Of a stretch of DNA of 37,223 bases, positions 10,238 to 30,367 are shown in pieces; the stretch's first letter is position 1; every line of letters begins with the position of its first letter. Position numbers and translations under genes: made by a program. Under the pieces are notes generated by a model. The model ran no database searches, had not been told where the DNA came from, and was given only the letters and a program-made list of their open reading frames with translations. Origin of the DNA: Thermococcus sp. Its GTDB lineage: Archaea; Methanobacteriota_B; Thermococci; Thermococcales; Thermococcaceae. The DNA is taken from positions 1-37,223 of the forward strand of contig NZ_WAKV01000057.1 in NCBI RefSeq assembly GCF_015523185.1, written 5' to 3'.

Positions 10238-10247
10238 GGTGATTGCT

Positions 10248-10631
10248 ATGGAGGACTTGATGAAGCAAATGATTAAGGCAGTCAAAAGTAAATATGGTTT
10301 TGAGGAGACCATTGAGAAACTGAAAAAGAAAACTGAAGAACTTGGCTGGACGGTTATAGGGGAGTATGACTTCAGGGAAAAAGTTGGAATTCCCTTTGCC
10401 ATTATAGAAGTCTGTAACAAGGAGTTTGCTACAAAGGCTATTAGCAAACCTGAAAATAGGTGGATTTCTGCTATGATGCCTTGTAAATTCTCCATAATAG
10501 AAATGCCTGATGGGATATACGTATTTGGTATGAACATGGAACTATTTGCTAAAATGATTCCTGGCGAGTTGGGGGGACTTCTTTCGGAAGTCTCAGAGAT
10601 TGATGAAAAAATAATTTCGGCTGTTCTCTGA
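10248..10631 (+). CDS. DUF302-domain protein
   Basis: 127-residue soluble protein. Its layout matches the DUF302 family: an early helix (FEETIEKLKKKTEELGW), the strand-rich KVGIPFAIIEVCN, then MMPCKFSIIEMPDGIYVFG, with the conserved Cys in EVCN and the Pro-Cys motif. The family's biochemical role is not established. The ATG at 10248 is chosen because AGGTGATTGCT precedes it; a GTG at 10239 is inside the ribosome binding site. An operator shared with the TetR gene and the hydrogenase operon lies directly upstream, so it probably belongs to the same response. Local base composition is more AT-rich than in the neighbouring operons. Confidence 0.75.
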   Translation: MEDLMKQMIKAVKSKYGFEETIEKLKKKTEELGWTVIGEYDFREKVGIPFAIIEVCNKEFATKAISKPENRWISAMMPCKFSIIEMPDGIYVFGMNMELFAKMIPGELGGLLSEVSEIDEKIISAVL

Positions 10632-10701: not shown

Positions 10702-10735
10702 TTCCACAGTTCTCATAATTGTCCATAGCTATCAA

Positions 10736-10749
10736 TGACTGAATGGTCA
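10736..10749 (+). promoter_or_regulatory. TetR-type operator upstream of the tetR-family gene (autoregulation)
   Basis: TGACTGAATGGTCA, again TGAC-N6-GTCA, lies between the TATA box and the ATG at 10762. Confidence 0.55.
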
Positions 10750-10761
10750 GAAGTGATGGGT

Positions 10762-11355
10762 ATGGCTACAAAATCACCCGGTAAGACTAGAGAAAAACTT
10801 GTTAGGTCCGCAATGGAGCTCTTCGCCAAAAAGGGCTTTGACAAGACAACGGTAGACGAGATAGTCGCGAAAGCAGGCGTCGCCAAAGGAACTTTTTACC
10901 TCTACTTTAAAAGTAAGGACGACCTCATAAAGGAGCTCGCTTTCGAAGTTATGCCCATAATGGCTATGCCCTCCCTAAACGACCCTTATATAACGGTGTC
11001 CTTTCCAACGCTAGAGAGCTACCTCCACCAGCTTGGTAGGGAGTTTCTGGATTTTTACTCCGAGAGTTATCGAGCTGAGATTTTCTTTCATATGCTCTCC
11101 GTCAGAGAGAGGATGAAAAGTGTGAATGAAATCTACAGGCAGGCATGCTCCGAGCTATTAAGGGAAGGGGCGAGGAGAATCACGGCCTACGTTAAGGTTG
11201 GTTTTGAAGACGCTCTAATATCATTTCAGGTCTTCATCGCTTCCTTGATGCACTATCTTCATGCTAGGGAGTGTATAGGCCTTTCCGATGAGCAATACCT
11301 GAGGAGAGTCGTTAGGGTTGTTCTGAACCATCTCCGCCTTTCAGTTAGTGTATAA
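10762..11355 (+). CDS. TetR/AcrR-family transcriptional regulator
   Basis: 197-residue regulator. The N-terminal DNA-binding domain is classic: a helix with LVRSAMELFAKKGFDKTTV, then the helix-turn-helix IVAKAGVAKGTFYLYFKSKDDL. The C-terminal part (about 60-197) is all-helical and should hold the ligand pocket and dimer interface; its ligand cannot be read from sequence. The ATG at 10762 is taken because AGTGATGGGT precedes it; upstream in-frame starts lie inside the operator. Operators of identical TGAC-N6-GTCA form sit in front of this gene, the DUF302 gene and the oxidoreductase-hydrogenase operon, so it is probably an autoregulated repressor of all three. Confidence 0.92.
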   Translation: MATKSPGKTREKLVRSAMELFAKKGFDKTTVDEIVAKAGVAKGTFYLYFKSKDDLIKELAFEVMPIMAMPSLNDPYITVSFPTLESYLHQLGREFLDFYSESYRAEIFFHMLSVRERMKSVNEIYRQACSELLREGARRITAYVKVGFEDALISFQVFIASLMHYLHARECIGLSDEQYLRRVVRVVLNHLRLSVSV

Positions 11356-11470: not shown

Positions 11471-13531
11471 ATGGCCGAGAAACTTGTGCCGGTAGTATGC
11501 CCCTGGTGTTCCGTCGGCTGTCGCTTTTACGCGGTCAGCGTGAACGGCTACATAAGGAGGATAGAATTCGACTACGACCACCCAACAATTGCAAACAGAG
11601 GAAAGCTCTGTCCCAAGGGAGTTGCTTCCTACCAGTTCATCAACAGTTCTAAGAGGATCAAAAAGCCCCTCAAGCGCGTCGGTGAGAAGGGTGAGGGGAA
11701 GTTCGAGGAGATAAGCTGGGGAGAAGCCTACAGGATAATCGCCGAGAAAATAAAGGAGATAAAGGAAACCTACGGACCTGAGGCGATAGCCTTCCTCGGA
11801 AGTGAGAAGATAACCCTCGAGGAGAACTACCTCGTCCACAAGCTCTCCAAGGCGATAGGGACCAACCATCTCGACTTTCCCGGAAGGTACTGCCAGTACT
11901 CTAACAGCCCAGCAAGGACGGCCGTATTCGGAAGCGGTGCGGCAACAAATCCCTTCGAGGACGTTGCCAAGGCCGAGCTGATTGTCGTCTGGGGCCACAA
12001 TCCTGCTGAAACCGCTCCTGTCTTCTTCGGCCAGTACGTTGAGAAAGCTGTTATTGACAACGGTGCCGAGATGGTTGTGATTGACCCGCGCTCGACGAGG
12101 GGACACAAGTACGCTTCCATTCACCTGAAGCCGTACCCGGGAACTGACCTTGCGATAGCCCTAGCGATGCTCAACGTTGTAATCAATGAGGAACTCTACG
12201 ACAAGAAGTTCGTTCAGGAGAGAACCGTTGGCTTCGAAGAGCTGAAGGAGGCCGTCAAGGACTACACCCCCGAGTGGGCCGAGAAGATAAGTGGCGTTCC
12301 GGCCGAGGACATAAGAAAGGCCGCGAGGCTGATAGCGAGCAAGAGAGCGGCCTTCCTCGTTAACGAAGGTGTCAACCAGCACGTTAACGGATTTGAACTT
12401 TCCCTGGCCATAGCGAACCTCATAGCAATAACCGGTAACATCGGCAAAGAAGGCGTCTGGAGTGGTGTCTTTCCAGGAGCACAATGTGGCTTCTGTGCCG
12501 CTATGAGTGGTATAGCTCCTAACAAGCTTCCAACAGGAAAGCTCGTCACTGACGAAGCCGCTAGGGCCGAGCTTGAGAGACTCTGGGGCTTCAAGATACC
12601 CGACTGGGTCGGCCTCGACCTGACCAACATGGTGAGGGAGATAGGGAAGAAGATTAGGATGATGTACATCGTCGGCGGTAACATAGCAAAGTCAATGCCC
12701 AACACCTCGTGGGTACGGGAACAGCTCAAGAAGCTTGACTTTCTCGTTGTGCAGGACATATTCCTCACCGAGACTGCTAAATACGCGGACATAGTTCTCC
12801 CGGCCGCGGCGTGGTTCGAGAAGACCGGGACGGCAATAAGCGCCGAGAGGCGCGTCCAGAGAACTTACAAGGCCGCCGAAGCTCCTGGCGAGGCAAAACC
12901 CGACTGGCTGATTATAGTTGAGCTCGCTAAGGAACTCGGCCTCGGTGAGTACTTCAAGTATGAGCACCCGGACGAGATTCTGAGGGAGATAAACAGCGTC
13001 ATCCCCGTGTTCAAGGGTGCAACGCCGGAGTACCTCGCGGAGCACCCTGAGGGATGCTTCTTCCCGTGCAGTGAACCGGGTGAGGGGACGAAGGTTCTCT
13101 TCAAGAAGGGCTTCAAGACCCCGGACGGAAAGGCCCACCTCCAGCCAGTCAAATGGCGCGAGCCACCTGAGATGACCGACGAGGAATACCCGCTCTGGCT
13201 TACCAACTTCAGGCTCGTCGGTCACTGGCACACTGGAACGATGTCATTCGAGAGCCCGAGCCTTGAGAAGCGCTGGCCAGAGGAGTACGTTATGATTAAC
13301 CCGAAGGACGCCGAGAAGCACGGCATAAAGAACGGTGACCTCGTCAAGGTCGAGACGAGGCGCGGAAGTGTCCTTGTCAGGGCAGAGGTTACCGAGCACG
13401 TCAGGGAGGGCGTTATAGCGATGCCCAACCACTGGAACATCAACTTCCTGACTCTGGATGAGATACACGAGAAGACCAAGATGGCCGAGCTGAAGGCCGT
13501 TGCGGCCAGGATTAAGAAGGTTGAGGAGTGA
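11471..13531 (+). CDS. fdhA: Molybdopterin (W/Mo bis-MGD) oxidoreductase, formate dehydrogenase alpha-like
   Basis: 686-residue catalytic subunit of the DMSO reductase superfamily, first gene of the hydrogenase operon. The N-terminal [4Fe-4S] site is CPWCSVGC (Cys 10, 13, 17) with Cys47 in GKLCPKG, followed by the bridging lysine. The metal ligand is Cys141 in GRYCQYSN, where E. coli FdhH has selenocysteine. Later parts align well with FdhH (VVWGHNPAE, TETAKYADIVLPAAAW, the C-terminal MGD-binding domain). However, the residue after the metal ligand is Gln142 rather than the catalytic His, and the FdhH Arg333 region reads VFPGAQ with no Arg. The substrate may therefore not be formate. The ATG at 11471 has GGTGAT before it. 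Confidence 0.88.
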   Translation: MAEKLVPVVCPWCSVGCRFYAVSVNGYIRRIEFDYDHPTIANRGKLCPKGVASYQFINSSKRIKKPLKRVGEKGEGKFEEISWGEAYRIIAEKIKEIKETYGPEAIAFLGSEKITLEENYLVHKLSKAIGTNHLDFPGRYCQYSNSPARTAVFGSGAATNPFEDVAKAELIVVWGHNPAETAPVFFGQYVEKAVIDNGAEMVVIDPRSTRGHKYASIHLKPYPGTDLAIALAMLNVVINEELYDKKFVQERTVGFEELKEAVKDYTPEWAEKISGVPAEDIRKAARLIASKRAAFLVNEGVNQHVNGFELSLAIANLIAITGNIGKEGVWSGVFPGAQCGFCAAMSGIAPNKLPTGKLVTDEAARAELERLWGFKIPDWVGLDLTNMVREIGKKIRMMYIVGGNIAKSMPNTSWVREQLKKLDFLVVQDIFLTETAKYADIVLPAAAWFEKTGTAISAERRVQRTYKAAEAPGEAKPDWLIIVELAKELGLGEYFKYEHPDEILREINSVIPVFKGATPEYLAEHPEGCFFPCSEPGEGTKVLFKKGFKTPDGKAHLQPVKWREPPEMTDEEYPLWLTNFRLVGHWHTGTMSFESPSLEKRWPEEYVMINPKDAEKHGIKNGDLVKVETRRGSVLVRAEVTEHVREGVIAMPNHWNINFLTLDEIHEKTKMAELKAVAARIKKVEE

Positions 13532-13541
13532 GGTGGTTGAG

Positions 13542-14042
13542 ATGGCTCACAAGAAGATTTTCCTCGACTATAAGCGCTGTATCGGCTGTAAGGCCTGTGA
13601 AGTGGCCTGTGAAATGACCCACGGCGAGGCAAGAATAAAGGTCTTCGAGTTCCCCGATCTCTTCACTGTCCCCTTCAACTGCCGCCACTGTGAGAAGGCA
13701 CCGTGTATGAACGTTTGCCCAACCGGAGCACTCTTCAGGGACGAGGACGGAGCCGTTGCCTTCGACCCGCTCAAGTGTATCGGCTGTCTCATGTGTGCCG
13801 TTGCCTGTCCCTTCGGAATTCCAAAGCTCGACGAGGAGAACAAGATTATGGACAAGTGCGACCTCTGTGCCGATAGAAGGGCGGAAGGCCTTCTCCCGGC
13901 CTGTGTTTCAGCATGCCCAACTGAGGCCCTTAAGTTCGGTGAGATAAATGAAATCCTCTGGAACAGAGAAGGAAAAATAGTCGCCAACCTGAAGAGCTCT
14001 GCCGAGAAGGGAGAGGGCGAGAAGGCATACATCGTCCTCTGA
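13542..14042 (+). CDS. Four-cluster Fe-S electron-transfer subunit (FdhB/HycB-like)
   Basis: 166-residue ferredoxin-type subunit that should carry electrons from the FdhA-like subunit to the hydrogenase. Sixteen cysteines form four [4Fe-4S] sites: CIGCKACEVAC, CRHCEKAPCMNVC, CIGCLMCAVACP and CDLC...CVSACP, the HycB/DmsB/FdhB pattern. There is no membrane anchor. The ATG at 13542 is chosen because GAGGTGG lies just before it and it follows the fdhA stop by ten bases. A T8 run follows the gene, before the membrane subunits. Confidence 0.93.
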   Translation: MAHKKIFLDYKRCIGCKACEVACEMTHGEARIKVFEFPDLFTVPFNCRHCEKAPCMNVCPTGALFRDEDGAVAFDPLKCIGCLMCAVACPFGIPKLDEENKIMDKCDLCADRRAEGLLPACVSACPTEALKFGEINEILWNREGKIVANLKSSAEKGEGEKAYIVL

Positions 14043-14095: not shown

Positions 14096-15475
14096 ATGAT
14101 TGAACTGGTGTTGATTTCAGCGCTCCTCCCGTTCCTGCTCCTGGCACTCTGGAAGCTCGAGGGAAAGACTGCTGACATCATAGCGGGCTCAATACTAGGC
14201 ATCTCACTTCTCCTAAATGGAATCGCTGTCTACGATTTCTTCTCAAACGGTTCTGAAAAGGTCTATCACACCGCCTACGTTGTAACAACCAACCTTGGGG
14301 AGGTCTTTGGGATAACCCTTGATACGGCCTCGGCACTCATGGGAATCGTTTCAATACTCATAGCGTTTCTCATGGTGGTTTACGCAAGCAGGTTCCTTGA
14401 GTCCAACAGGGGAAAGTTCTACGCACTCTTCGGCCTCTTGACGGGCGCGAGCATGGTTTTCATATACTCAATCAACCTCGTTCAGTTCGCCATAGCCCTC
14501 GAGCTGATGGCCATTGCGATGCTCTGCCTTGTTGAGCTGGGCGGTGCAAAGATGGATGCCCTCAAGGCCTTTCTCGTCCTCAACGTTGGTGTTTTCCTCA
14601 TACTTGGTGCAGTTCTTGTCCTCGGGAACGGCCAGGACCTCACGAAGGTCACTTATGACAGCACAGCCTTTCTCCTGCTGATTTTCGCCGCCTTTATGAT
14701 GAGCTCCCAGTTCCCGTTCTATTCATGGCTCCCCGACTCAACCGCTTCTCCGATTCCAGCGAGTGCCTACGTCCATTCAGCTTCAATAGTTCCGCTCGGT
14801 GCCTACATGCTCTTCAGGGTCATACAGTACATGAAGCCGAACGACCAGTATTTCTGGCTCCTCGGAGGCCTAACCGTTGCCCTGATAATCCTAATGATGA
14901 TTTATTACCCCCTCCAGCGCGATGCCAAGAGACTTGTGGCGTATTCGACCATAGCACAGACGGGCGTTGCCTACATAACCCTCGCCTACGCCCTCCTTGG
15001 CCACGTTGCAGGTATACAGATAGCCCTTTACCAGGTTGTCAACCATGCCGTTGTTAAAGCGCTCGCCTTTGCCTCCGTTGGTGGCCTTGCGATTGCATAT
15101 GGTACGACTGACCTCAAGCTCATCAAAGGAATGAGAAAAAGCGTCCCGTGGACGAGCATAGCATGGTTCATGAGCTTTCTCGGCTTGGCTGGCGTTCTCC
15201 CGCTCGGTCTATTCTTCAGCAAGGCCTTCACCATAATGAGCACCAGACATGCAGAGGGCATAGCTTCGTGGCTCTTCCCGGGCGTTGTCCTCATTGACGC
15301 GGCAATATTCCTCATAGTGGTTCTCCTGTGGTTCAGGAAGAGCTTCTTCGGGGAGGGCGAATCCAGGAACGAACCAAAGGTCATCGTTGCAGTGCTTATA
15401 GTCCTCATAATAGTCGGCATAATAATGCCTTGGGTGAGCCTCGACGTTGTGATGAAGATAAGCTTCGCGGGGTGA
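14096..15475 (+). CDS. NuoM/N- or MrpD-like membrane subunit of group 4 hydrogenase
   Basis: 460-residue polytopic membrane protein of the complex I/Mrp antiporter family, with about 13-14 hydrophobic segments. Family marks are SQFPFYSWLPDSTASPIPAS (the core loop with the conserved Pro and Asp), KRLVAYSTIAQTG, and VVNHAVVKALAFASVG with the conserved lysine. A Glu in an early helix (IALELMAIAML) matches the conserved channel acid. It probably pumps H+ or Na+ driven by electron flow to the hydrogenase. GGGGTGATGGTG precedes the ATG at 14096. The next gene starts six bases after its stop. Confidence 0.9.
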   Translation: MIELVLISALLPFLLLALWKLEGKTADIIAGSILGISLLLNGIAVYDFFSNGSEKVYHTAYVVTTNLGEVFGITLDTASALMGIVSILIAFLMVVYASRFLESNRGKFYALFGLLTGASMVFIYSINLVQFAIALELMAIAMLCLVELGGAKMDALKAFLVLNVGVFLILGAVLVLGNGQDLTKVTYDSTAFLLLIFAAFMMSSQFPFYSWLPDSTASPIPASAYVHSASIVPLGAYMLFRVIQYMKPNDQYFWLLGGLTVALIILMMIYYPLQRDAKRLVAYSTIAQTGVAYITLAYALLGHVAGIQIALYQVVNHAVVKALAFASVGGLAIAYGTTDLKLIKGMRKSVPWTSIAWFMSFLGLAGVLPLGLFFSKAFTIMSTRHAEGIASWLFPGVVLIDAAIFLIVVLLWFRKSFFGEGESRNEPKVIVAVLIVLIIVGIIMPWVSLDVVMKISFAG

Positions 15476-15481
15476 TGGGAA

Positions 15482-17473
15482 ATGATACTCGAATACGCGA
15501 TTGGAGCATTCATTCTCGGTGGCCTCGTCGGTCTGATTAGGGACTACAAGGCTACCGTCAAGGCCTCAAGTTTCATGGCCTTCCTCGGTTCGCTGGCGCT
15601 CCTCTGGCAGGTTTACTCCGTCTACACAAACGGCCCGGTTTCGGGAAACCTCTTTGGGATTCCCCTCAGGATTGACAATCTCTCGATAGTCTTCCTCCTC
15701 ATAATTGGCCTCGTGGGAACCGCCGCCTCGCTCTTCGCAATCAACTATATGGAGATGTTTGAAAACGTCGGCAAGGGCTGGGTCTATGCCGTTGCATACA
15801 ATACCTTCCTGGCGAGCATGGCCCTTGTAGTTACCGTTGACAGTATGGAGTACTTCGTGATGAGCTGGGAACTCATGACACTCAGCTCCTTTATACTCGT
15901 CTTCTTCAGCGAGAAGCTCAGGGACGTCGATGTGAGCGTTAAGTACTACATCACTATGCACTTCCTCGACACTATACCGCTCTTCCTTGCCCTTGGAACT
16001 GCCTATTCGCTCGTTGGAAGCTTTGACAAGCTGACCTTTGAGAACATAGCGAGTGCGATGGCAACCGCTCCCTTCCACACCAAGGCAGTCTTCGGCGGTT
16101 TACTCATGATAGCCTTCATGACGAAGTCGGGCATGATACCCTTCCAGTTCTGGGTTGCCGAGACCTACCGCGCGGCACCGACCAGCGTTTCCGCTGTCAT
16201 GGCTGGAGCGATGGAGAAAGTGGCCCTCTATGGTCTCATAGCCCTTATTTGGAGAATCGTGGGGACGAGCTACTCACTCGGGCTCTTTGTTGCCGTGATA
16301 GGTGCCATAACCCTCACTGTTGGAACACTCTACGCCCTCCGCGAGACAAATGCCAAGAGGCTACTTGCCTATCACTCAATAGGTCAGATGGGCTATATAT
16401 GGCTCGGCATAGGAATAGGCATGGCTCTCATTCCAAAGGGAGGCTTCCTCGGCGCGGTCGGGGCTCTTGGTGCCTTTGCCGGACTCTTCCACGCCCTCAA
16501 CCACGCAATATTCAAGGCCTCACTCTTCCTATCGGCTGGAGCCGTCGAGTACAGAACCGGAACAGTGAACCTTGACGAACTGGGTGGCCTTGGGAGGACT
16601 ATGAAGGTAACGGCCCTCGCGGCGCTCTTCGCTTCCCTCGCGATAAGTGGTGTTCCGCCCTTCAACGGATTCCTGAGCAAGTGGCTCATCTACGTTTCCG
16701 GTTACTACTCCCACAGCTATGTCCTTGCCCTTGGAGCTGTCCTAGCTGCTTTCATAAGTGCGGCAACACTCGCCTCCTTCGTCAAGTTCTACGGGGCTCA
16801 GTTCGGCGGTGATATGAAGCGCTACGAAAACGTCAAGGAGGTTCCAGCCGGAATGCTCGCCGGCCAGTGGATTCTCGCCGGTTTAACGCTCCTCATAGGC
16901 CTCTTCCCAGGAACCGTCACTGGAATCCTCAACGTCTTCAACGCCCCAGTGGAGACGAACCTCTACAAGATTGGTTTCCAGTCGGTGTTCTTCTCCCCAG
17001 TGCTCTTCGTGATAGTGCTCGGAATCCTAGCGTTCGGGCTCTACCTCGTCTTCAAGCCGGAGTACAAGGAGGCCAAGCCCTGGGACTGCGGTTCAACCCA
17101 GATAGACGAGGATGAGTATAGGATAAACGCTGAGGGCTACTATATCAAGTACGAGGAGAAGATTGGTTCGTTCTACCGCCTCGGTGACTGGTTCTACAGT
17201 GTTGGCGCTGGGATAATACACTACATCGTTAGGGCATACCTCTGGATGGCGAGCTACTTCACAAAGATAGTGGACACACCCTACACAAAGGTTGAGAGCC
17301 TCGACGACCTCCGTGAAAGAGAAATCCTGCACATCGACGAGGAGGTCTTCAAGCCCCTCATAAGGTTCCTCAACATAGCCAGAGACGTTCTGCCGGGGAT
17401 AAGGCTCGGAACCTTCATAGTCATAGCCCTGATTGTTGTCGGGGCCATCGTGGGACTGCTGATAGCCATGTGA
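15482..17473 (+). CDS. NuoL/HyfB/HycC-like membrane subunit of group 4 hydrogenase
   Basis: 663-residue polytopic subunit, the largest membrane component. The antiporter core includes the helix-5 Glu in YFVMSWELMTLSS, the loop KSGMIPFQFWVAETYRAAPT, AKRLLAYHSIGQMGY, and HALNHAIFKASLFLSAG. The C-terminal 150 residues leave the core: a polar stretch (WDCGSTQIDEDEYRIN), a long helical segment and a final transmembrane helix (FIVIALIVVGAIVGLL). This matches HycC/NuoL proteins, where the tail runs along the membrane arm. GGTGATGGG precedes the ATG; the preceding stop is six bases upstream. Confidence 0.92.
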   Translation: MILEYAIGAFILGGLVGLIRDYKATVKASSFMAFLGSLALLWQVYSVYTNGPVSGNLFGIPLRIDNLSIVFLLIIGLVGTAASLFAINYMEMFENVGKGWVYAVAYNTFLASMALVVTVDSMEYFVMSWELMTLSSFILVFFSEKLRDVDVSVKYYITMHFLDTIPLFLALGTAYSLVGSFDKLTFENIASAMATAPFHTKAVFGGLLMIAFMTKSGMIPFQFWVAETYRAAPTSVSAVMAGAMEKVALYGLIALIWRIVGTSYSLGLFVAVIGAITLTVGTLYALRETNAKRLLAYHSIGQMGYIWLGIGIGMALIPKGGFLGAVGALGAFAGLFHALNHAIFKASLFLSAGAVEYRTGTVNLDELGGLGRTMKVTALAALFASLAISGVPPFNGFLSKWLIYVSGYYSHSYVLALGAVLAAFISAATLASFVKFYGAQFGGDMKRYENVKEVPAGMLAGQWILAGLTLLIGLFPGTVTGILNVFNAPVETNLYKIGFQSVFFSPVLFVIVLGILAFGLYLVFKPEYKEAKPWDCGSTQIDEDEYRINAEGYYIKYEEKIGSFYRLGDWFYSVGAGIIHYIVRAYLWMASYFTKIVDTPYTKVESLDDLREREILHIDEEVFKPLIRFLNIARDVLPGIRLGTFIVIALIVVGAIVGLLIAM

Positions 17474-17483
17474 GGTGATGAAA

Positions 17484-18401
17484 ATGGAGACGACGGCTAA
17501 GCTTGCCTTCAGCTTTATCGGAGTGCTCCTGACTTTCCTCCTGCCCCCTTACCTTGATGGAATAGCCAGAAGGGTAAAGGCGAGGCTCCAGTACAGGCGC
17601 GGGCCACCGCTTATGCAGACGTGGTACGACCTCAACAAGCTCTTCAACCTTCCATCGGTCAAGCCGACAAAGAGCGCGCTCTTCACATGGGCGCCTTTCC
17701 TGGCTTTGGCCTCTGCCGTAATCGGTGCCCTACTCCTCCCCTACGGTAACGTCGTTCCAATAAACGTGGGATTCAACCTAGTCGTGTTCTTCTACGTAAT
17801 CCTGATGGTCAGCGTATTCCTGATGCTCGCGGGACTCACAGTTCAGAACGCATTCAGCCACCTCGGTTCCGCCAGGGAGATGCAGATAATCCTCACTGTT
17901 GAGCCACTCATTGCGATACTCTACGGAGTCCTGGCCTACAACGCCGGTTCCCTCAACATAGCGGACATCGTCTCAAACCTCCACCTGACGCCTTCACTCG
18001 TGATGACCTACGTCCTCCTGGCTTACGCCCTCTACGTCGAGAGTGGCTTCGTGCCCTTCGACATAGCCGAGGCGGAGCAGGAAGTTATCGGCGGTCCCCT
18101 CAGCGAGTACAGTGGAAGACTCCTAGGAGTCTTCTACTACGCCATCTACATCAAGCGCTTTGCCCTGCTGTGGTTCTTTGTGAGCCTGCTCGTCCTTCCG
18201 TGGGTAGGTCCGATAAACACAACGCTCAAAGCGGCCGAGGTGCTCGCGATACAGTTCCTGCTGACGATAGCTTTATACCCGGTTATAGCTTCACTTGAGG
18301 CCACGAACGCAAGGCTCAGGATTGACCACGTGGTTAAGATGAACACGAGGGCGTTCTTCGCCGGTGTGATTATACTCGCAATAGCCTTCATGGGGTGGTG
18401 A
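17484..18401 (+). CDS. NuoH/HycD-like membrane anchor subunit of group 4 hydrogenase
   Basis: 305-residue membrane protein that links the soluble hydrogenase arm to the membrane arm. Family motifs are ARLQYRRGPPLMQTWYDL near residue 30, a charged loop EPLIAILYG, and PFDIAEAEQEVIGGPLSEYSG, the cytoplasmic loop that lines the quinone or proton path in complex I. Eight hydrophobic segments are visible. The ATG at 17484 (GGTGAT four bases before) is preferred to two in-frame starts slightly upstream that fall inside the ribosome binding site. Confidence 0.93.
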   Translation: METTAKLAFSFIGVLLTFLLPPYLDGIARRVKARLQYRRGPPLMQTWYDLNKLFNLPSVKPTKSALFTWAPFLALASAVIGALLLPYGNVVPINVGFNLVVFFYVILMVSVFLMLAGLTVQNAFSHLGSAREMQIILTVEPLIAILYGVLAYNAGSLNIADIVSNLHLTPSLVMTYVLLAYALYVESGFVPFDIAEAEQEVIGGPLSEYSGRLLGVFYYAIYIKRFALLWFFVSLLVLPWVGPINTTLKAAEVLAIQFLLTIALYPVIASLEATNARLRIDHVVKMNTRAFFAGVIILAIAFMGW

Positions 18402-18403
18402 AT

Positions 18404-20203
18404 ATGGTAACGACGAAGGATTTGGAGGCTCACTCCGAATTTGAGTGCAGGGCCTGTGAAAAGGGCCGGTGCAGGAAGGCGGATGTTAACGTTATACTTT
18501 CCGAGAGAAAAGGTCTTAAGGAGTTTTACGAGGCCTTTAAGGAGCACATAAAGGAATGCAAGAGAATGACCTATGGTCAGTACCAGTTTGTCATAGACAG
18601 GGAGGTTCTCCCTGAGGCAGTGCTCTGGTGGCACAACCACCCGGAATTCAAAGAGACACACCTCTCCACGGCTGTGGGAACCGATGAGAGACCACTTAAC
18701 GGACACTTCGTCTACATGCCGTTCCTCAACGTTCAGGTCGAGTTTGCCAACGAGCCTGAGAACTACTATGTGTTCCTCAGGACTTACCTCCCGGCAGACG
18801 ACCCGAGCTTCCCGAGCGTCGCAGCTAAACTCCCAGCCGCGCTCTGGATAGAGAGAGAGGTCAGGGACTTACTTGGCTTCAACCCAGTTGGTCACCCAGA
18901 CCCGAGAAGGTTAATTCTCCCCGAGGACTGGCCAGAGGGAGTTTATCCGCTCAGGAAGGACATGGACTACAGAGACTCGCCAATGGCAGAGCCGAAGGTT
19001 GAGTTCAAGGAAAAGCCCGATGAGACAACGCTCGTTCCGATGGGTCCAGCTCACATGGGTATCGAGGAGCCGGCCCACTTCCGGCTGTTCGTGAAGGGTG
19101 AGACCATAGTTGACGTTGACTACCGCGGTTTCTACTCCCACCGTGGCATAGAAAAGACGGGAGAGGGCAGGCTAACCTACAACCAGGTGCTCTTCCTCGC
19201 TGAGAGAATATGTGGAATCTGTGGCTACCAGCACTCCGTCAGCTACGCCATGGCCGTTGAGAGATTGGCTGACGTTGATATACCCGATAGGGCACGCTAC
19301 ATAAGGACACTGCTCCTCGAGCTTGAGAGGATTCACAACCACCTCCTGTGGGTGGGAATAGCAGCGCACCTCGTCGGCTACGACACGGGCTTCATGCACG
19401 CGTGGCGTATCAGGGAGCCAGTCATGTGGCTCGTTGAGCGCCTGACCGGAAACAGGAAGCAGTATGGTATGAACATTGTTGGTGGAGTTAGGAGGGACAT
19501 ACTCGACTACAGGAAGGAGGAGATACTAAAGGTCGTCAAGCAGATACGCGAAGAGACCAAGAAGTTCCTTGACATCGCTCTAAACACTAACACCTTCATC
19601 AAGCGCGCAGAGGGAGTCGGTATACTGCCCTACAAGGTTGCGAAGGCCTACTCTGTCCTTGGACCGACTGCCCGCGCTAGCGGAAGGAGGATTGACACGA
19701 GAAAGGACCAGGCAGTCAAAACTGCCACAGCTTACAACGAACTCGACTTCAAGGTCCCCGTTTACAAGGAGGGTGACGTTTTAGCTAGGGTTCTCGTAAG
19801 GATGGACGAGCTCTTTGAGAGCCTCTGGATGGTCGAGCAGATAATCGACCAGATGCCCGGCGGAGACATAATGGTTCCAATTGGCGACCTGCCCGAGTAC
19901 GAAGAAGCTTTGGGCTTCACAGAGGCCCACCGCGGTGAGGTTGTCCACTACGTCATGACGGGCGAGAAGAACAAGGTCTACCGCTGGAAGGTTCGTGCTC
20001 CGACATACAACAACCTGCCGGCAGTTCCCGAGATGCTCAAGGGCTACCACGTTGCCGATGCACCGCTAATCATAGCGAGCATTGACCCGTGCTACTCCTG
20101 TACCGAGAGGGTTCAGTTCGTTGACCTCGAAACCGGCAAGGTGAAGGTTCTTACCGAGGCCGAGTTCAACGAGCTCTCAATCAAGTATAAGGGGGTGTTC
20201 TGA
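18404..20203 (+). CDS. [NiFe] hydrogenase large subunit with fused NuoC-like domain (HycE-like, group 4)
   Basis: 599-residue fusion. Residues about 50-190 resemble the 30-kDa (NuoC) domain (EREVRDLLGFNPVGHPDPRR) and the rest the 49-kDa/large-subunit domain. The nickel ligands are intact: RICGICGYQHS (Cys 270 and 273) and DPCYSCTER (Cys 563 and 566). About 30 residues follow the last motif (VQFVDLETGKVKVLTEAEF and on), the position where HycI-type proteases cut after nickel insertion; a candidate protease lies at 23913-24398. The N terminus has an extra cysteine cluster (ECRACEKGRC, Cys 15, 18, 23) whose role is not known. Evolves H2 with electrons from the upstream redox subunits. Confidence 0.95.
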   Translation: MVTTKDLEAHSEFECRACEKGRCRKADVNVILSERKGLKEFYEAFKEHIKECKRMTYGQYQFVIDREVLPEAVLWWHNHPEFKETHLSTAVGTDERPLNGHFVYMPFLNVQVEFANEPENYYVFLRTYLPADDPSFPSVAAKLPAALWIEREVRDLLGFNPVGHPDPRRLILPEDWPEGVYPLRKDMDYRDSPMAEPKVEFKEKPDETTLVPMGPAHMGIEEPAHFRLFVKGETIVDVDYRGFYSHRGIEKTGEGRLTYNQVLFLAERICGICGYQHSVSYAMAVERLADVDIPDRARYIRTLLLELERIHNHLLWVGIAAHLVGYDTGFMHAWRIREPVMWLVERLTGNRKQYGMNIVGGVRRDILDYRKEEILKVVKQIREETKKFLDIALNTNTFIKRAEGVGILPYKVAKAYSVLGPTARASGRRIDTRKDQAVKTATAYNELDFKVPVYKEGDVLARVLVRMDELFESLWMVEQIIDQMPGGDIMVPIGDLPEYEEALGFTEAHRGEVVHYVMTGEKNKVYRWKVRAPTYNNLPAVPEMLKGYHVADAPLIIASIDPCYSCTERVQFVDLETGKVKVLTEAEFNELSIKYKGVF

Positions 20204-20832
20204 TGGCCGAGAGCCTCCCATACACCGAGAAGCTCAAGAAGTGGAATCGCTTTGAGGCCGAGAAGTTTAGCAAGAAGGCCCCTGTTACCACCCCCTATCC
20301 TTTTATTGACATCGAGAAGCCGCCGGAGTACAGGGGAATACCCCACATCAACCCCGAGAAGTGCATAGGCTGTGGGGCCTGTGTAAACGCCTGTCCACCC
20401 GATGCCCTGATAATGGAGTGGGACAAGGAGCACGGTGTCAAGAGACTCACATACAACGCTGCAAGATGTATCAGGTGTGCCCGTTGTATAGAGGTCTGCC
20501 CGACGGGAGCGATGGAGCCAACAACGAGGTTCGAAGTGGCAACTGACAACAAAGAAGATTTGGTAGAGGTTGTCGAGCACAAGTTAGCTTACTGCGAGGA
20601 GTGCGGAGAATACCTTGACTTCACCGAGAGGCAGATAGAGTACGTGAGGAACATCCTCCCGAAGGAAATATTTGACATGTATGCCCTCGAGGACAGGATA
20701 AAGCTCACACAGGAGGAAAAGATGCGTAGAACGGTCGTCAAACTCAGGGAAACCGAGGGCAACGTTTATCCGGCCTTCGTGCTCGTGGAGAAGCCAAGGA
20801 AATCCCCCAAAAGGGAAGGGGGTGAGGAGTAA
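20203..20832 (+). CDS. Ferredoxin-like hydrogenase subunit (HycF/NuoI-like)
   Basis: 209-residue two-cluster subunit. CIGCGACVNACPPDAL and CIRCARCIEVCPTGAM give two [4Fe-4S] sites, as in NuoI/HycF. About 100 more residues follow, including a CEECGEYLDF pair that may bind zinc, and a Lys-rich end. It bridges the external Fe-S carrier and the small subunit. Start and stop codons overlap the neighbouring genes by one base each (TGATG and TAATG), so translation is probably coupled. Confidence 0.93.
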   Translation: MAESLPYTEKLKKWNRFEAEKFSKKAPVTTPYPFIDIEKPPEYRGIPHINPEKCIGCGACVNACPPDALIMEWDKEHGVKRLTYNAARCIRCARCIEVCPTGAMEPTTRFEVATDNKEDLVEVVEHKLAYCEECGEYLDFTERQIEYVRNILPKEIFDMYALEDRIKLTQEEKMRRTVVKLRETEGNVYPAFVLVEKPRKSPKREGGEE

Positions 20833-21665
20833 TGGGGAAGCAGAGGCTTAAGTCCGTCTGGGTCTATCACGTTGATGCCGGTTCATGTAACGGTTGCGAC
20901 ATTGAGGTTCTCGATGTGCTCAGTCCCTACTATGACCTTGAGAGATTGGGAATTAAAGTTGTTCCCAACCCGAGGCACGCGGATGTGCTCTTCATAACAG
21001 GGCCGCTCACGAGGCAGACGAGGATAATGATAAGAAAGGCCTATGAGGCCATGCCTCCAAAGCCGAGAATAGTCGTTGCCATAGGAACCTGTGCATCAAG
21101 TGGTGGAATCTTCTACAACAGCTACGCCCTCTACAATACTTCACCCCAGCGCGGAAGGGACAGGCTCAGGAGCGGTGGGCCGGAGATGATAGTCCCAATA
21201 GACATGTACATCCCCGGCTGTCCGCCCAGCCCAGAGGAGATACTCTATGGTGTCGCCCAGCTCCTCGGAATAAAGGAGAAGAAGATGAAGGGCGAGTACT
21301 GGATAGCCCTTCCGCCCGGGGAGAAAGCCGGCAAAGAGAATGAGATTGAGTTTAAGATTCCGGACAGACCTATACCGCTCCGTTACTGGCTGACGCTTCG
21401 TGAAGAACTTAGAAGGGTTGTGGGCTACTACGACAGGGATGCTGTCCTCAACGACTTCATCGAGCTGGTTGGAAAGGCCTTCGAAAGCGAGAACCCGAGG
21501 GAGAAGCTCCACGACCTAGTTACGGGATACTTCCTCAAGGAAAAGGACTCCAGGATAAAGGTGGCCATGCGCTTCCTTGAAAACGAGTTCTGGCGCCTCT
21601 ACGACGAATACCACTCCCTCGGAGAGAACATCAGGAAGAAATATCCGGTTACCGCGGGTGTCTGA
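20832..21665 (+). CDS. [NiFe] hydrogenase small subunit (HycG/NuoB-like)
   Basis: 277-residue subunit holding the [4Fe-4S] cluster nearest the nickel site. The ligands are visible: GSCNGCDIEVL (two Cys), IGTCASSGG and PGCPPSPEE. The first ~155 residues cover the usual NuoB-like domain. The remaining ~120 residues (RPIPLRYWLTLREELRRVV and on) are a C-terminal extension rich in charged helices, longer than in E. coli HycG. It has no twin-arginine signal, consistent with a cytoplasmic-facing group 4 enzyme. Confidence 0.93.
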   Translation: MGKQRLKSVWVYHVDAGSCNGCDIEVLDVLSPYYDLERLGIKVVPNPRHADVLFITGPLTRQTRIMIRKAYEAMPPKPRIVVAIGTCASSGGIFYNSYALYNTSPQRGRDRLRSGGPEMIVPIDMYIPGCPPSPEEILYGVAQLLGIKEKKMKGEYWIALPPGEKAGKENEIEFKIPDRPIPLRYWLTLREELRRVVGYYDRDAVLNDFIELVGKAFESENPREKLHDLVTGYFLKEKDSRIKVAMRFLENEFWRLYDEYHSLGENIRKKYPVTAGV

Positions 21666-21666
21666 A

Positions 21667-21984
21667 GTGCCCTGGAAACTATACCACTTTAAATACGAGG
21701 ATTACCCGGAATACTCCGCGAGAATTACCGGGCACTATGCCGGCGACCTGCTAATCATTGAGGAGGCAGGGGAGCTCAGCGAGGAGGCAGTGAAGCTTAT
21801 AAAGAAAGCCTTGGGCATCGATGAAAACGCGAGGGCCTTTGACATAGATGTCAGGGACGTGCTGAAGCTTCCAATCAAAGAACTGCCCGAGGAGGACAGA
21901 AAAGTCCTTATATCTGCCTCAGAAAAGCTGGACTCTGAAAGCAAACTCCACGTGGAGTACCGCTATCAGCCGACCTTCGATTGA
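21667..21984 (+). CDS. Small unknown protein at the end of the hydrogenase operon
   Basis: 105-residue acidic soluble protein starting at GTG 21667, one base after the small-subunit stop; GGGTGT within the preceding gene serves as ribosome binding site. A longer frame starting at 21577 lies inside the small-subunit gene and is rejected. No Cys, no membrane segment and no recognised domain; the order is strand-helix-strand (DLLIIEEAGELSEEAVKLI), then a helical part and a short polar tail. Its position suggests an accessory subunit or assembly factor for the complex. Confidence 0.75.
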   Translation: MPWKLYHFKYEDYPEYSARITGHYAGDLLIIEEAGELSEEAVKLIKKALGIDENARAFDIDVRDVLKLPIKELPEEDRKVLISASEKLDSESKLHVEYRYQPTFD

Positions 21985-22023: not shown

Positions 22024-22476
22024 ATGAACGCTGAGACCTTGAAGAGAGCCAAGGAGGAGCTGATTCAAAGGGTGAAGGACTTCTACGGGGACAACCTGCT
22101 CTCGATAATCTTCTACGGGAGGCACCTTCAGGACCCGGGCTTTCCAGAGATAGACGTGGTCGTTGTAATAGACAAACCCTACGACCCAGTTAAGATGAAC
22201 CGTGTGGCAGATTTCGTTGAGAACATAAGGGACCCAATAGAGGAGAAATACGGCTACCACGTCTCCTTCGAGCTCTACACGCGCGAGGAAGCAGAGAACT
22301 TTCACTCCGGCTACCTTGACGTGGTTGTTAACTACGAGGTGGCCTACGATAAAGATAACTACTTCCAGAACCTCCTCAGGAACATGCTGAATCCAAAAAA
22401 GGCGATGGACTACGTTAAATACATCAGCACGATTGAGTACATCCCCGTCGAGGAAGAGGAGAGGGACGACGAATGA
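22024..22476 (+). CDS. Nucleotidyltransferase-like protein with an atypical active-site motif
   Basis: 150-residue soluble protein of the minimal nucleotidyltransferase type. The pattern [26 protein letters not shown] resembles the fold's usual 'FGS.arG....SDiDl.v', but the conserved Gly-Ser is Gly-Arg and the first Asp of the Asp-x-Asp pair reads as Glu. Catalytic activity is therefore uncertain. The second half ([18 protein letters not shown]) is helical. GGGGGGTGAAGG precedes the ATG. Its end overlaps mobA by four bases, so it is likely co-translated with the cofactor gene. Confidence 0.72.
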
Positions 22477-23063
22477 TAGGGGCCGTTCTGGCCGGCGGAA
22501 GAGGAAGGCGCTTTGGGGGCGATAAGTTACTCTTCAAAATTTCCGGAAAGCCCCTGATTCTTTATACCATCGAGAGGCTGGAGAAAGCGGAGGGGATAGA
22601 TGAAATAGTTCTGGTCGCTTCCAGAGAAAACGCGGAAAAGCTTGAAAGACTGGGTTATGGGGTAGTCATTGATGAACTCCTCGTGGGCCCGATGGGAGGT
22701 ATTTACACCGCCCTTTCCCTTGGCGATGCCTTTGTGGTTGCAGGCGACATGCCCCTCCTTGTTCCGGAGTTTGTTGATTTCATAATAGAGCGCTTTTATC
22801 TAGAAAAAAAGCCGGCCTGCGTTCCGCGGTGGAGCAACGGCTACCTTGAACCTCTCCATGCCGCTTATTTAAGGGAATTTAGGTCTTTTCTGGGAGAAAA
22901 AATCAAGAGTGGACGGTATGCGATAAACCGGGCGATAAGGGAAAGTGAGGCCTGCTACATCGAAATCGAGAGCCTTCCCGAGGAGTGGAGGGAGAGCTTC
23001 TTCAACGTGAACACGCGGGAGGATTTGGAAAGAATCAGAGGCATTCGGGAAAGAGTTCTATGA
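22473..23063 (+). CDS. mobA: Molybdenum cofactor guanylyltransferase (MobA)
   Basis: 196-residue enzyme that joins GMP to molybdopterin (with Mo or W) to make the MGD cofactor used by the FdhA-like subunit. N-terminal [18 protein letters not shown] is the GTP-binding signature, with the lysine typical of MobA. VAGDMPLL carries the metal-binding Asp, and the C-terminal [11 protein letters not shown] is the family's closing motif. It overlaps the preceding gene by four bases. The location downstream of the hydrogenase operon suggests it supports that enzyme. Its end overlaps the convergent PIN-domain remnant by 29 bases. Confidence 0.93.
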
Positions 23064-23681: not shown

Positions 23682-23920
23682 TTATGCTTTTCTCACCCGT
23701 ACTCCATCTAATCCACCTCTTCCTGAACTTGGCAGGTAGACGAGCACCGCCACGAGGATGAAGATGGAGCCGAGAACCCCTCTCCTGAGATACCACAGCA
23801 GAAAGCCGGTGCCGAGGAAGAGGTCTTTCAGCGTTTTCCATCTGTTCTCCTCGGTTTTAAATCCTAGAAAAACGAGATAATGCCTAAGATGCCTCCAATC
23901 AGCTAGACGTACTCAATCAT
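23682..23920 (-). pseudogene. Decayed small membrane-protein gene after the hydrogenase protease
   Basis: An ATG at 23920 overlaps the protease stop codon in the classic ATGA form. The reading is MIEYV, an in-frame TAG, then LIGGILGIISFF and a second stop. In another frame the text continues FKTEENRWKTLKDLFLG, then GVLGSIFILVAVLVYLP (a clear membrane segment) to a TAA at 23682-23684. Joined, it would be a protein of about 80 residues with two membrane helices. At least one nonsense change and one frameshift separate the pieces. No family was recognised, and an artefact of hydrophobic non-coding sequence cannot be excluded. Confidence 0.4.
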
Positions 23921-24398
23921 CCCCTCCACCGTTCAGAATCCCCGCCAGCAGTTCCGCCAGCCTTTTCGCACGTTCCCTTATCAGCTCGCTTGGCTCTTGG
24001 AATAACCCTGTCGAGCCGGGCTGACAACCTATAAGCACGAACTCTGCCTTAACCATAGTCTTCATGAACTGGGTCACGAACTTCAGAGGAAGGCCGTGGG
24101 TCGAGACTGCCTCGCCTATCGTTCCTTCCGGGTCGGCTATTATATACTCCCCGACTTCACCGCCGAAGTCAACGGCATCAACGAAAACAACGAGTTCCGG
24201 CTTGAAATCCTTTATTTTTCCAGTGTAGTTCTCTGGAACCTCACCGCAGTTTACCACAAGGACGTTTGGATTGTCAAGGAGTTTCTTCAGCTTTTCAGCC
24301 ACGAGCACGCCGAAGGCATCGTCCCCCCTTATGTCGTTTCCTATACCGCAGATTACGATTCGCTCTTTTCCTTGAAAGATTTCTTCGAGGGCGTTCAT
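23913..24398 (-). CDS. Hydrogenase maturation endopeptidase (HycI/HybD family)
   Basis: 161-residue protease that trims the C-terminal tail of the hydrogenase large subunit after nickel insertion. VICGIGNDIRGDDAFGVLV carries the first acidic metal ligand (Asp in GDD), VVFVDAVDFGGEVGE the second, and STHGLPLKFV the conserved His. IGCQPGSTGL is also typical of the family. The ATG at 24398 (GGGGGAGAG upstream) is preferred to 24422, which would lie at or before the predicted transcription start (TATA-like TTTTAAAC near 24437). It likely processes the subunit at 18404-20203. Confidence 0.92.
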   Translation of the reverse strand: MNALEEIFQGKERIVICGIGNDIRGDDAFGVLVAEKLKKLLDNPNVLVVNCGEVPENYTGKIKDFKPELVVFVDAVDFGGEVGEYIIADPEGTIGEAVSTHGLPLKFVTQFMKTMVKAEFVLIGCQPGSTGLFQEPSELIRERAKRLAELLAGILNGGGDD

Positions 24399-24454
24399 TT
24401 TGGGACTCTCCCCCAGTCTCATGTTAGTGTGTCATGTTTAAAAAAGAACAAAAA

Positions 24455-28038: not shown

Positions 28039-28521
28039 ATGAAAAAAGAAAAACAGCAGAACAAGAAATTCATTGAGCTCGTGGAAAGGCTACTTGAAAG
28101 GTGGGGATATAACAGGACGGAAGGAAAAATTTACGCCGTCCTGCTTATGAACGGCAAACCCATGACGATTTCGGAACTCGCAAAAAGCACGGGTCTCAGT
28201 AGGTCCTCAGTCTCGATAGCACTCTCCAACTTGACTAGAGATTATTTGGTTACTTACAGGAAAGAAGGTAAAACCAAGTATTTCTCGGCCGTTCCAGTTT
28301 TTCTGGAGAAGTTTCTCAAGCAACCTCAAGAGATGCTAGAACGGGAGGTTTTACCTCTTAAAAAAGTTGTAGAATCCCTGTTGGAATCAACTGAGAGCGA
28401 TGAAAAAAGAACAACTTACGAGGCGATACTCTCAGACCTTTCGGCCCTTGAGTGCGTTCTCAAAAGATTGATAGAGTTTGAAGAAAGAGACGAGCTCTGT
28501 TTTAAGAAAGAGTCTTCCTGA
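28039..28521 (+). CDS. Winged-helix regulator (TrmB/MarR/GbsR-like)
   Basis: 160-residue DNA-binding protein. An N-terminal helical part leads to a winged helix: YNRTEGKIYAVLLMNGKP, TISELAKSTGLSRSSVSIAL and the wing YRKEGKTKYFSAVP. The last ~60 residues form a helical, probably dimerising segment. The ATG at 28039 follows GGTGAT by four bases. It is the nearest regulator to the palindromic promoter at 27549-27613 and a candidate for binding it. Its end overlaps the end of the convergent transporter gene by 20 bases. Confidence 0.85.
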   Translation: MKKEKQQNKKFIELVERLLERWGYNRTEGKIYAVLLMNGKPMTISELAKSTGLSRSSVSIALSNLTRDYLVTYRKEGKTKYFSAVPVFLEKFLKQPQEMLEREVLPLKKVVESLLESTESDEKRTTYEAILSDLSALECVLKRLIEFEERDELCFKKESS

Positions 28522-29503
28522 GCTTTATCATCTTTATTGTCGTGACCAGCCACAGTCCGAGAAGTGGCCATAACAAAATGAACCCGAAGGCGTTCAGGAG
28601 GTTTAAATGGAACGCTTCTCCCAAGTCCAGTGTTGAGTTCGTGAAGGCTCCTATCGGAAAGATGAACGCCCACCACGAGGTGCTGTAAGGCAGGTGAAGG
28701 TTCCTGACGTAATGGATGGTTAATGCCGTTGCCATGACCAGCCACCAAAAGCCCAAACCCCAGAGGAAGAAAGCGAAGACCATAAAGGGTTCCTTCGGGA
28801 TTGGTATCGTCGAGTTCGTTACGAGGGCGAAGAGCGCCGTTATGCTTGCTCCTATTGGTCCCAAGTTCATCCATATTAGTGGTGCCATCTGCGGCGGCAT
28901 GAGCTCGTGTCTTATGAAGCGGAGCGTGACCACGGCGTAGAGCACTAGGTACAGGAAGAACCCGGCGCCCCATCCGAGGTAATTTACCGTGACAACTATC
29001 TGGTTGGTGTATCCCGCTGTTGTTCTCATGAACACCGCTCCAAACGGGATTATCACTAAGGCCACCGGTGGAATGTACCAGGCCGGTGAAAGGTGCTTTA
29101 AGTCAACTTCTCCAGCTATGAAAATCTCATACGACATCCAGAAGGCAAATATGAACGTTAGAATCAGGCCCCAGAGCCAGAGGTACCACGCCAGCTTGAG
29201 GTTGTGGAGTGTGACTATAAACTGCGCAGCGAGGACTATGGTGGCCGCCCCACTCGTCCCGTAGAAGTGTCCCATCGCAGGATGCCTGAGGTCATCAAGG
29301 GCGTTTTTCGTGTAAATTATCCACCTGAGCAACCACGGGAGGAGCAGAAAGACGTAGAGCACGATGTTAAGGTAAGTTAAGGCTATTCCTATCTCCTTCA
29401 AAGGTTCCCAGTACTGCGAGTATCGGTAACTTGCTATGCTAACCGCTCCAGTCCCCATGACACTGGCGAATAGGGCCGGATTGAACTTTTTCACGAAATC
29501 CAT
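28502..29503 (-). CDS. TDT-family transporter (SLAC1/Ssu1/TehA-like)
   Basis: 333-residue protein with about ten membrane helices. The N terminus FNPALFASVMGTGAVSIA is the family's first-helix signature, and repeated pairs of helices with short loops and conserved aromatic residues (WWLVMATALTIHYV, TSWWAFIFPIGAFTNST) match the TDT fold. TDT members export sulfite or other small anions or carry dicarboxylates; the substrate here is unknown. GGAGGG precedes the ATG at 29503, and TTTATAAG near 29550 is the TATA box. It is divergent from a TauE/SafE exporter. Confidence 0.85.
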   Translation of the reverse strand: MDFVKKFNPALFASVMGTGAVSIASYRYSQYWEPLKEIGIALTYLNIVLYVFLLLPWLLRWIIYTKNALDDLRHPAMGHFYGTSGAATIVLAAQFIVTLHNLKLAWYLWLWGLILTFIFAFWMSYEIFIAGEVDLKHLSPAWYIPPVALVIIPFGAVFMRTTAGYTNQIVVTVNYLGWGAGFFLYLVLYAVVTLRFIRHELMPPQMAPLIWMNLGPIGASITALFALVTNSTIPIPKEPFMVFAFFLWGLGFWWLVMATALTIHYVRNLHLPYSTSWWAFIFPIGAFTNSTLDLGEAFHLNLLNAFGFILLWPLLGLWLVTTIKMIKLRKTLS

Positions 29504-29632
29504 GAAAAATCCCTCCTTCAATTTTGGTTTCATATGACTTTAGTCTCACTTATAAATTTTGCCCAGCAAAATATCATAAGGTAGATGAAAAACTTTTTAA
29601 ATGACCTAATGTTCATTTGACCGGTGGGTGCG

Positions 29633-30367
29633 ATGAGCTATCCAGAACTTGCATTGATAGCCTTCATCCTCAGCGTTGTCTTTTCCATGGGTGGCATTGG
29701 CAGTGCCATGGCGATAGTCCCCACGATGGCATGGTTAGGAGTTCCACTTATGACGGCCAAGCCAACTGGCCTCTTCATAAATACCCTCTCAATGCTCTCG
29801 GCGACGCTTAAGAACCTGAAACATGGTAAGCTCGACCACCGTTTTGGGCTTCCAATACTGCTCGTAGCCACCACCATGGCCCCGGTTGGTGCCTACGCCG
29901 GAAAGATAGTACCTAAAGTCTACGTCCTTTGGGTCTTCATAGCGTTCCTCCTCTACTCCGGAACGATGATGATTTTCTTCAGGCCGAAGAGACGGCCGAA
30001 GGATGGAAACCACATCGTTGAAGGTTCGATAATCGGTGGAATAGCCGGTTTCCTCGGTGGTCTCCTTGGAGTGGGCGGCGGGGGGATAATAAGCCCTGCT
30101 TTGATAATGCTCGGCTATGAACCCAAGAAGGTGGCCGCCACAACGGCTCTTGTTGTGTTCTTTTCTTCTTTGAGTGGCTTTCTAACTTATTGGGGCATGG
30201 GAGCCTTGAACTGGGAGCTTTTGCTATGGGTCTCTGTCCCAGCTATAGCCGGCGGCTGGCTTGGGACGCATTTGATGCACTTTAAAATGAGTCCAGACCA
30301 GGTGAAAAAGGTTATAGGGGTGATAATGTACCTGATAGCCCTGAAGATGATTTTAAAGGTTCTCTAA
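29633..30367 (+). CDS. TauE/SafE-family (TSUP) membrane transporter
   Basis: 244-residue transporter of the sulfite/sulfonate exporter superfamily, with about seven to eight membrane helices. Two homologous halves are visible: the first with SMGGIGSAMAIVPTM and the second with GGLLGVGGGGIISPAL. The glycine-rich motifs line the substrate path. Substrates of characterised members include sulfite, thiosulfate and sulfoacetate. The ATG at 29633 follows GGTGGG, and TTTTTAAA at 29594-29601 is a likely TATA box giving an almost leaderless transcript. Pairing with a TDT exporter suggests anion or sulfur-compound export. Confidence 0.88.
   Translation: MSYPELALIAFILSVVFSMGGIGSAMAIVPTMAWLGVPLMTAKPTGLFINTLSMLSATLKNLKHGKLDHRFGLPILLVATTMAPVGAYAGKIVPKVYVLWVFIAFLLYSGTMMIFFRPKRRPKDGNHIVEGSIIGGIAGFLGGLLGVGGGGIISPALIMLGYEPKKVAATTALVVFFSSLSGFLTYWGMGALNWELLLWVSVPAIAGGWLGTHLMHFKMSPDQVKKVIGVIMYLIALKMILKVL

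Follow-up and report, generated by a model that had tools for sequence, protein, structure and literature searches.

Does the apparent formate hydrogenlyase encoded on contig NZ_WAKV01000057.1 of Thermococcus sp. (assembly GCF_015523185.1) run on formate? The stretch of DNA analysed here, called the window throughout, spans 37,223 nucleotides and carries, at 11471..13531 (+ strand), the gene of an FdhA-like catalytic subunit followed by those of a membrane-bound hydrogenase. A first-pass annotation of the sequence had proposed that this subunit lacks the His and Arg used on formate, and hence that the complex oxidises another substrate or handles formate by a different mechanism.

The FdhA-like subunit lacks the active-site His and Arg of formate dehydrogenases

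Translation of 11471..13531 (+) gave an intact 686-aa protein, the C-Q/P-G-A variant of a Mo/W-bisPGD subunit with one [4Fe-4S] cluster. With phmmer, it aligned end to end with solved formate dehydrogenases (FDHs; 7bkb_D, E=1e-136; 9t1s_L; 7qv7_S; E. coli FdhH 1aa6, E=2.5e-117), and it narrowly passed the curated FDH-alpha model TIGR01591 (676.6 bits vs a cut-off of 666.25). When aligned with E. coli FdhH (fdhF of NC_000913), the window protein had Cys141/Gln142 (codons 11891..11896, +) opposite Sec140/His141 within a gap-free region, so that the metal ligand Cys141 is indeed followed by Gln, as noticed in the first-pass annotation. The same annotation had read the stretch around FdhH Arg333 as VFPGAQ, devoid of Arg; this was borne out and the exact column could be fixed, with FdhH Arg333-Gly334-Gln335 matching, again without gaps, Pro335-Gly336-Ala337 (12473..12481, +). 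The Arg is present in all three published FDH classes (I-III), as is one or more His near the metal, either directly after the ligand or in an R-G-H motif (PMC8808070). The window protein has Pro335 in place of the Arg, and no His at either site (C-Q and P-G-A). Its Fe-S ligands, said to be retained, are in place, as are the relay Lys and the metal ligand (C10, C13, C17, C47, K49 and C141). An AlphaFold model of the protein was confident (pLDDT 93.2, pTM 0.93) and superposed in Foldseek on FdhH (1fdi) with a TM of 0.95 and an rmsd of 1.9, for which reason we trusted the sequence alignment; the best structural matches were formate dehydrogenases and NapA.

The substitutions are fixed in one clade and extend to the surrounding pocket

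Relatives were collected from named genomes and from 94 Thermococcaceae genomes, and a refined profile run on 115 genomes of the phylum separated the family by a clear gap (>1056 bits vs <860 bits, fragments ignored). The family rows spanning both sites number 42, stem from Thermococcus, Pyrococcus and, rarely, vent bacteria, and without exception carried C-Q and P-G-A, whereas all 24 canonical FDH rows compared, including T. onnurineus Fdh2 and Fdh3, carried C-H and R-G-Q; because the 42 rows come from independent genomes, chance or sequencing error can be excluded. In the phylogeny, the C-Q/P-G-A family formed a single side of one branch (SH-aLRT 100), corresponding to one change of state. 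Family members were found in about 39 of the 94 Thermococcaceae genomes (two members in some), in 2 of 400 Chloroflexota genomes and in 1 of 398 Thermoproteota genomes, this sole member (L014) being perhaps a binning error. Besides the clade member, the window's genome has L002 and L003, FDH-alpha genes of canonical type in which both the His and the Arg are kept. Two genomes hold a second, divergent paralog of the clade (L059:6648-8711 and L061:7995-10064; motifs CQSTVFFAK and QQMGSTQH), which in L061 is accompanied by FdhB and by Mrp-type, DUF169 and TauE neighbours, with no adjoining hydrogenase genes.

Sites specific to the clade (42 family vs 24 canonical rows) clustered near FdhH positions 109, 141, 148, 297-300 and 329-342, in the metal-site region. 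The window protein has Glu112 (11804..11806, +) where all canonical FDHs compared have Ser or Ala (FdhH 109), Glu299 (12365..12367, +; Glu in 40 of 42 family rows) at the place of FdhH Met297, and Arg149 (11915..11917, +; Arg or Lys in all 42) at that of FdhH Leu148. Moreover, FdhH Thr300 and Val338 are replaced in the family by Asn302 and Gly340, and Gln339 by a hydrophobic residue (position 341; Phe, Met, Leu or Tyr). In D. vulgaris FdhAB, formate was observed close to Arg441, and a figure legend has it held by Thr450 and Gln447 (PMC9820355); counted by its offset from the Arg, this Gln447 would correspond to FdhH Gln339. Judged from the alignment, the Arg and two nearby Gln were lost together in the clade, which gained one basic and two acidic residues. 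We infer that formate is no longer bound in the pocket of the clade as it is in canonical FDHs. Nevertheless, every complete family row kept the four Fe-S Cys, the relay Lys and the metal-ligand Cys, and comparison of the window gene with five orthologs gave a dN/dS of 0.05-0.06, showing strong purifying selection; the kept ligands and the low dN/dS together argue against a dead enzyme.

The operon encodes a group 4 [NiFe] hydrogenase

The catalytic gene is preceded by genes for a DUF302 protein (10239..10631, +; Pfam) and a TetR-family regulator (10735..11355, +; Pfam), the latter kept upstream of Thermococcaceae operons and ending here 115 bases before FdhA. It is followed on the same (+) strand by an FdhB-like polyferredoxin with four 4Cys motifs (13542..14042; profiles and motif check), a HyfD/MrpD-type membrane subunit (14096..15475; best model hydrogenase 4 subunit D, 343.9 bits), a HyfB/MrpD-type membrane subunit (15482..17473; best model hydrogenase 4 subunit B, 331.6 bits) and a NuoH/HycD-type membrane subunit (17475..18401; profile match). 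Next come, as identified by profiles and motifs, the [NiFe] hydrogenase large subunit of NuoCD/HycE type (18395..20203, +), whose C-terminal tail and ligand motifs (RICGIC, DPCYSC) are present, a NuoI/HycF-type subunit with two [4Fe-4S] clusters (20203..20832, +) and the NuoB/HycG-type small subunit (20832..21665, +). A small conserved protein outside any Pfam family (21661..21984, +) was recognised by operon comparison and is called MhyI-like after PMC2718504. The set has the features of an H2-evolving group 4 [NiFe] hydrogenase, namely the NiFe, small-subunit and NuoI Cys motifs and the NuoH- and NuoL/N-type membrane subunits. Beyond it lie a 150-aa protein without a Pfam match, nucleotidyltransferase-like by eye and conserved beside family operons (22024..22476, +), the molybdenum cofactor guanylyltransferase MobA (22473..23063, +; 232 bits vs a cut-off of 164), which most of the Thermococcaceae examined have next to the operon, and a HycI-type hydrogenase maturation protease (23913..24422, - strand; above the cut-off of TIGR00072, and 107.9 vs 119.1 for hycI). 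Hydrogenase maturation genes flank the operon, among which HypA, HypC, HypD, HypE and HypF are assignments made by eye.

The core gene order is common to the Pyrococcus, T. onnurineus and Chloroflexota operons. Those of the Anaerolineae/Chloroflexota MAGs L015 and L110 include the whole hydrogenase and have a two-component regulator pair instead of the TetR found before Thermococcaceae operons; they likely reflect a transfer between archaea and bacteria. Many Thermococcus genomes, and one of Chloroflexota (L110:513-1148), have DUF302 next to the family operon; it is missing from T. onnurineus-type and Pyrococcus-type operons. In most of the Thermococcaceae examined, the 150-aa protein trails the operon, and it occurs in Chloroflexota too (L110:1192-1608); the Fdh2 operon of T. 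onnurineus (L129) showed none. Downstream of the maturation genes, at 28505-30364, genes for a SLAC1/TDT-type channel and a TauE/SafE exporter were found, which are near the operon in several, not all, family genomes. A link to sulfite was considered on the basis of these genes, 6-8 kb downstream, and of the TauE beside the L061 paralog, but the linkage is missing in several family genomes and we keep it as a lead only. The sulfurtransferase FdhD (PF02634) was not found in the window's genome; in all, 83 of the 94 Thermococcaceae genomes gave no match, several of these with a canonical FDH and a formate transporter. Since formate-active species, among them the one whose genome was assigned to T. 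gammatolerans, lack it as well, FdhD proved uninformative as a discriminator.

Published physiology and transporter distribution

By sequence kinship, the window operon belongs to the Thermococcales 'Group 4 fhl' (Fdh1-Mfh1): its catalytic subunit lies in the same SH-aLRT 100 clade as the protein (L057) taken as T. onnurineus TON_0281. This assignment uses a genome with FDH matches at 248, 494 and 1434 kb, which we take to be that of T. onnurineus NA1 with fdh1 (TON_0281), fdh3 (TON_0539) and fdh2 (TON_1563). In the alignment, fdh1 belongs to the C-Q/P-G-A clade and fdh2 and fdh3 are canonical. Formate oxidation was shown for purified T. onnurineus Fdh3, which has Cys133-His134-Arg324, growth on formate requires fdh2 and, as of 2022, no role had yet been settled for Fdh1 (PMC8965080). 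Group 4 fhl operons are described by Holden and Sistu (2023) as having TetR upstream and no formate transporter, and in T. paralvinellae their expression dropped on formate (PMC10025317). In T. onnurineus, only cells grown with sulfur yielded TON_0281 and TON_0280; growth on CO, formate or starch did not (PMC4463584). The T. paralvinellae and T. onnurineus data, taken from species other than that of the window, suggest a role away from formate. On the other side, Fdh1-Mfh1-Mnh1 of T. piezophilus was raised at 50 MPa, with no substrate assigned (PMC8595942). The missing formate residues go unmentioned in the accessible parts of PMC10025317, PMC4463584, PMC8595942 and PMC2718504.

Profile searches detected no formate transporter (PF01226) in the window's genome, and none lies within the window operon. 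Such a transporter was present in 22 of the 94 Thermococcaceae genomes, all of which have a canonical Fdh2/3-like gene, and was lacking in 25 of the 39 family genomes; in published physiology, formate was converted only by strains with a formate transporter. This circumstantial pattern fits a non-formate role but also the use of formate made inside the cell.

A hydrogenlyase probably driven by a donor other than formate

We consider the window complex to be an energy-conserving hydrogenlyase whose donor is probably not formate. Gln142 alone is compatible with formate use. Since ForCE, which has C-Q, is active, as are the H387M and R587K variants of RcFDH (kcat is reduced in both, and KM is large in R587K; PMC9804402), it is the Arg-to-Pro change and the rebuilt pocket that carry weight, not the Gln. 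Joint loss of the His and Arg lowers the odds of formate, not to nil, and Arg/Lys149 may take over anion binding from the lost Arg. The first-pass proposal of a non-formate substrate or another formate mechanism is therefore reasonable, supported as it is by the clade-wide fixation, the loss of two Gln in the formate region, the lack of a transporter and the published expression; it is nonetheless unproven, and one of its two pillars, C-Q, is found in a proven FDH.

In the mechanism that we propose, the FdhA-like protein would be the electron-input subunit of a membrane-bound, H2-evolving, ion-pumping [NiFe] hydrogenase complex. Its Mo/W-bisPGD centre, on Cys141, would take two electrons from a small low-potential substrate and, by analogy with homologous complexes, these would pass through the one [4Fe-4S] cluster to the polyferredoxin FdhB, the Fe-S subunits of the hydrogenase and the NiFe site, where protons would be turned into H2 while the membrane subunits export ions. 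As a guess, the donor could be an aldehyde from the breakdown of 2-oxo acids and amino acids, with a Glu near the pocket activating water. Aldehydes come first to mind: they are small, neutral and strongly reducing, peptide fermentation makes them, and the new Glu residues could, purely by analogy, activate water, a part that Glu plays in the AOR and xanthine oxidase families, unrelated to the window enzyme. We nonetheless rate this particular donor as rather unlikely. To our knowledge, oxidising aldehydes has not been established for the bisPGD enzyme family. Equally tentative is the wider proposal of a bisPGD enzyme that would turn a non-formate substrate, such as an aldehyde, into acid and H2, and that would have spread in Thermococcales under the name of 'formate hydrogenlyase 1'.

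Counted against a non-formate donor were the TIGR01591 pass, the activity of ForCE with its C-Q, the active RcFDH variants and the basic residue 149 in every family row. Together with an operon plan equal to that of formate hydrogenlyases, they would fit an enzyme that is still a formate hydrogenlyase with another formate-binding arrangement, for example Arg/Lys149, on the helix after Cys141, standing in for Arg333, and Gln142 acting as in ForCE, its task being to clear internal formate or to make formate for purine synthesis. We regard this as possible but rather unlikely given that Arg-to-Pro, Gln335-to-Ala and Gln339-to-hydrophobic are fixed jointly, that the family has no compensating His of R-G-H style, that the formate transporter is absent and that published expression is uncoupled from formate.

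Electrons might also flow in reverse, from H2 via the hydrogenase to the Mo/W subunit, which would act as a reductase, for instance of an oxyanion or of a sulfur or nitrogen compound. NapA is as close as FDH by Foldseek (TM 0.95), RcFDH became able to reduce nitrate when H387M/R587T was combined with an additional Arg (PMC10385643), and T. onnurineus Fdh1 was seen only with sulfur; yet the window protein has no NapA-like C-M/T signature, its operon is without terminal reductase partner genes, and an H2-evolving type of hydrogenase with ion-pump subunits calls for a low-potential donor, so that we hold reverse flow to be highly improbable. Even harder to credit is a pseudoenzyme kept merely as a structural piece or electron relay, to which the absence of both of the best known catalytic residues could point: the low dN/dS, the Fe-S and metal ligands of every complete row, the MobA gene retained next to the operon in most of the Thermococcaceae studied and the apparently strict conservation of the new pocket residues all speak against it.

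The preferred reading, a hydrogenlyase with a non-formate donor, matters because the formate metabolism of vent archaea is predicted from Group 4 'formate hydrogenlyases', which also serve to explain how T. onnurineus, P. abyssi and others conserve energy. If it is true, formate predictions would be wrong for about 39 of the 94 Thermococcaceae genomes searched, and an H2-yielding reaction with another fuel would still have to be found. In addition, the clade is a natural test of the debated importance of the His and Arg in metal-dependent FDHs, both being removed with the fold and metal ligand kept.

Comparison with known systems

FdhH of E. coli formate hydrogenlyase-1 shares with the window protein the fold, the Fe-S ligands, the Lys and a similar type of hydrogenase partner, but differs by its Sec-His and Arg-Gly-Gln active site. 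NapA-type enzymes have C-M and a Thr at the place of the Arg, as in the NapA-like L019 (C-M/T), unlike the C-Q and Pro of the window. The proven menaquinone-linked FDHs ForCE1/ForCE2 (YjgC/YrhE) of B. subtilis have Cys then Gln, as in the window, and oxidise formate, but they keep the Arg and add a compensating His in R-G-H (PMC8808070). They also have an N-terminal NuoG-like extension, a DUF1641 partner and no hydrogenase, whereas the window protein has P-G-A and 686 aa without the extension, and no DUF1641 partner was noted in its operon.

Closer in architecture, T. onnurineus Fdh2-Mfh2-Mnh2 (TON_1563 cluster) likewise combines FdhAB with a membrane [NiFe] hydrogenase. Its Fdh2 is 45% identical to the window protein and differs by C-H and R-G-Q, and its cluster by a nearby formate transporter, FdhD upstream and an extra MrpD-type subunit. 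The T. litoralis fdhAB-mhyCDEFGH operon (Takacs 2008), a membrane hydrogenase with an FdhA-like subunit, has the identical eight-gene order, and was considered as an ortholog on that account; once located by its published primers, its FdhA proved to be of a separate lineage, with C-H and Ala. This published 'formate hydrogenlyase' FdhA (L076:995-2905) and a close relative (L106:279-2189) keep C-H and have Ala at the place of the active-site Arg (motif PLAGQNNSQG), which from their sequences is a second, separate loss.

With the Group 4 fhl, including T. onnurineus Fdh1-Mfh1-Mnh1 (TON_0281 cluster), the window operon shares the catalytic clade, the operon order, the TetR upstream and the lack of a transporter, and we found no essential difference; T. 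gammatolerans Mhy1 is counted with them by its position beside hyp genes. The family is thus already known, catalogued as formate hydrogenlyase (Group 4 fhl, Fdh1). What is new is that the whole Group 4 fhl clade is devoid of the formate residues, which leaves its name and its assumed formate substrate without support.
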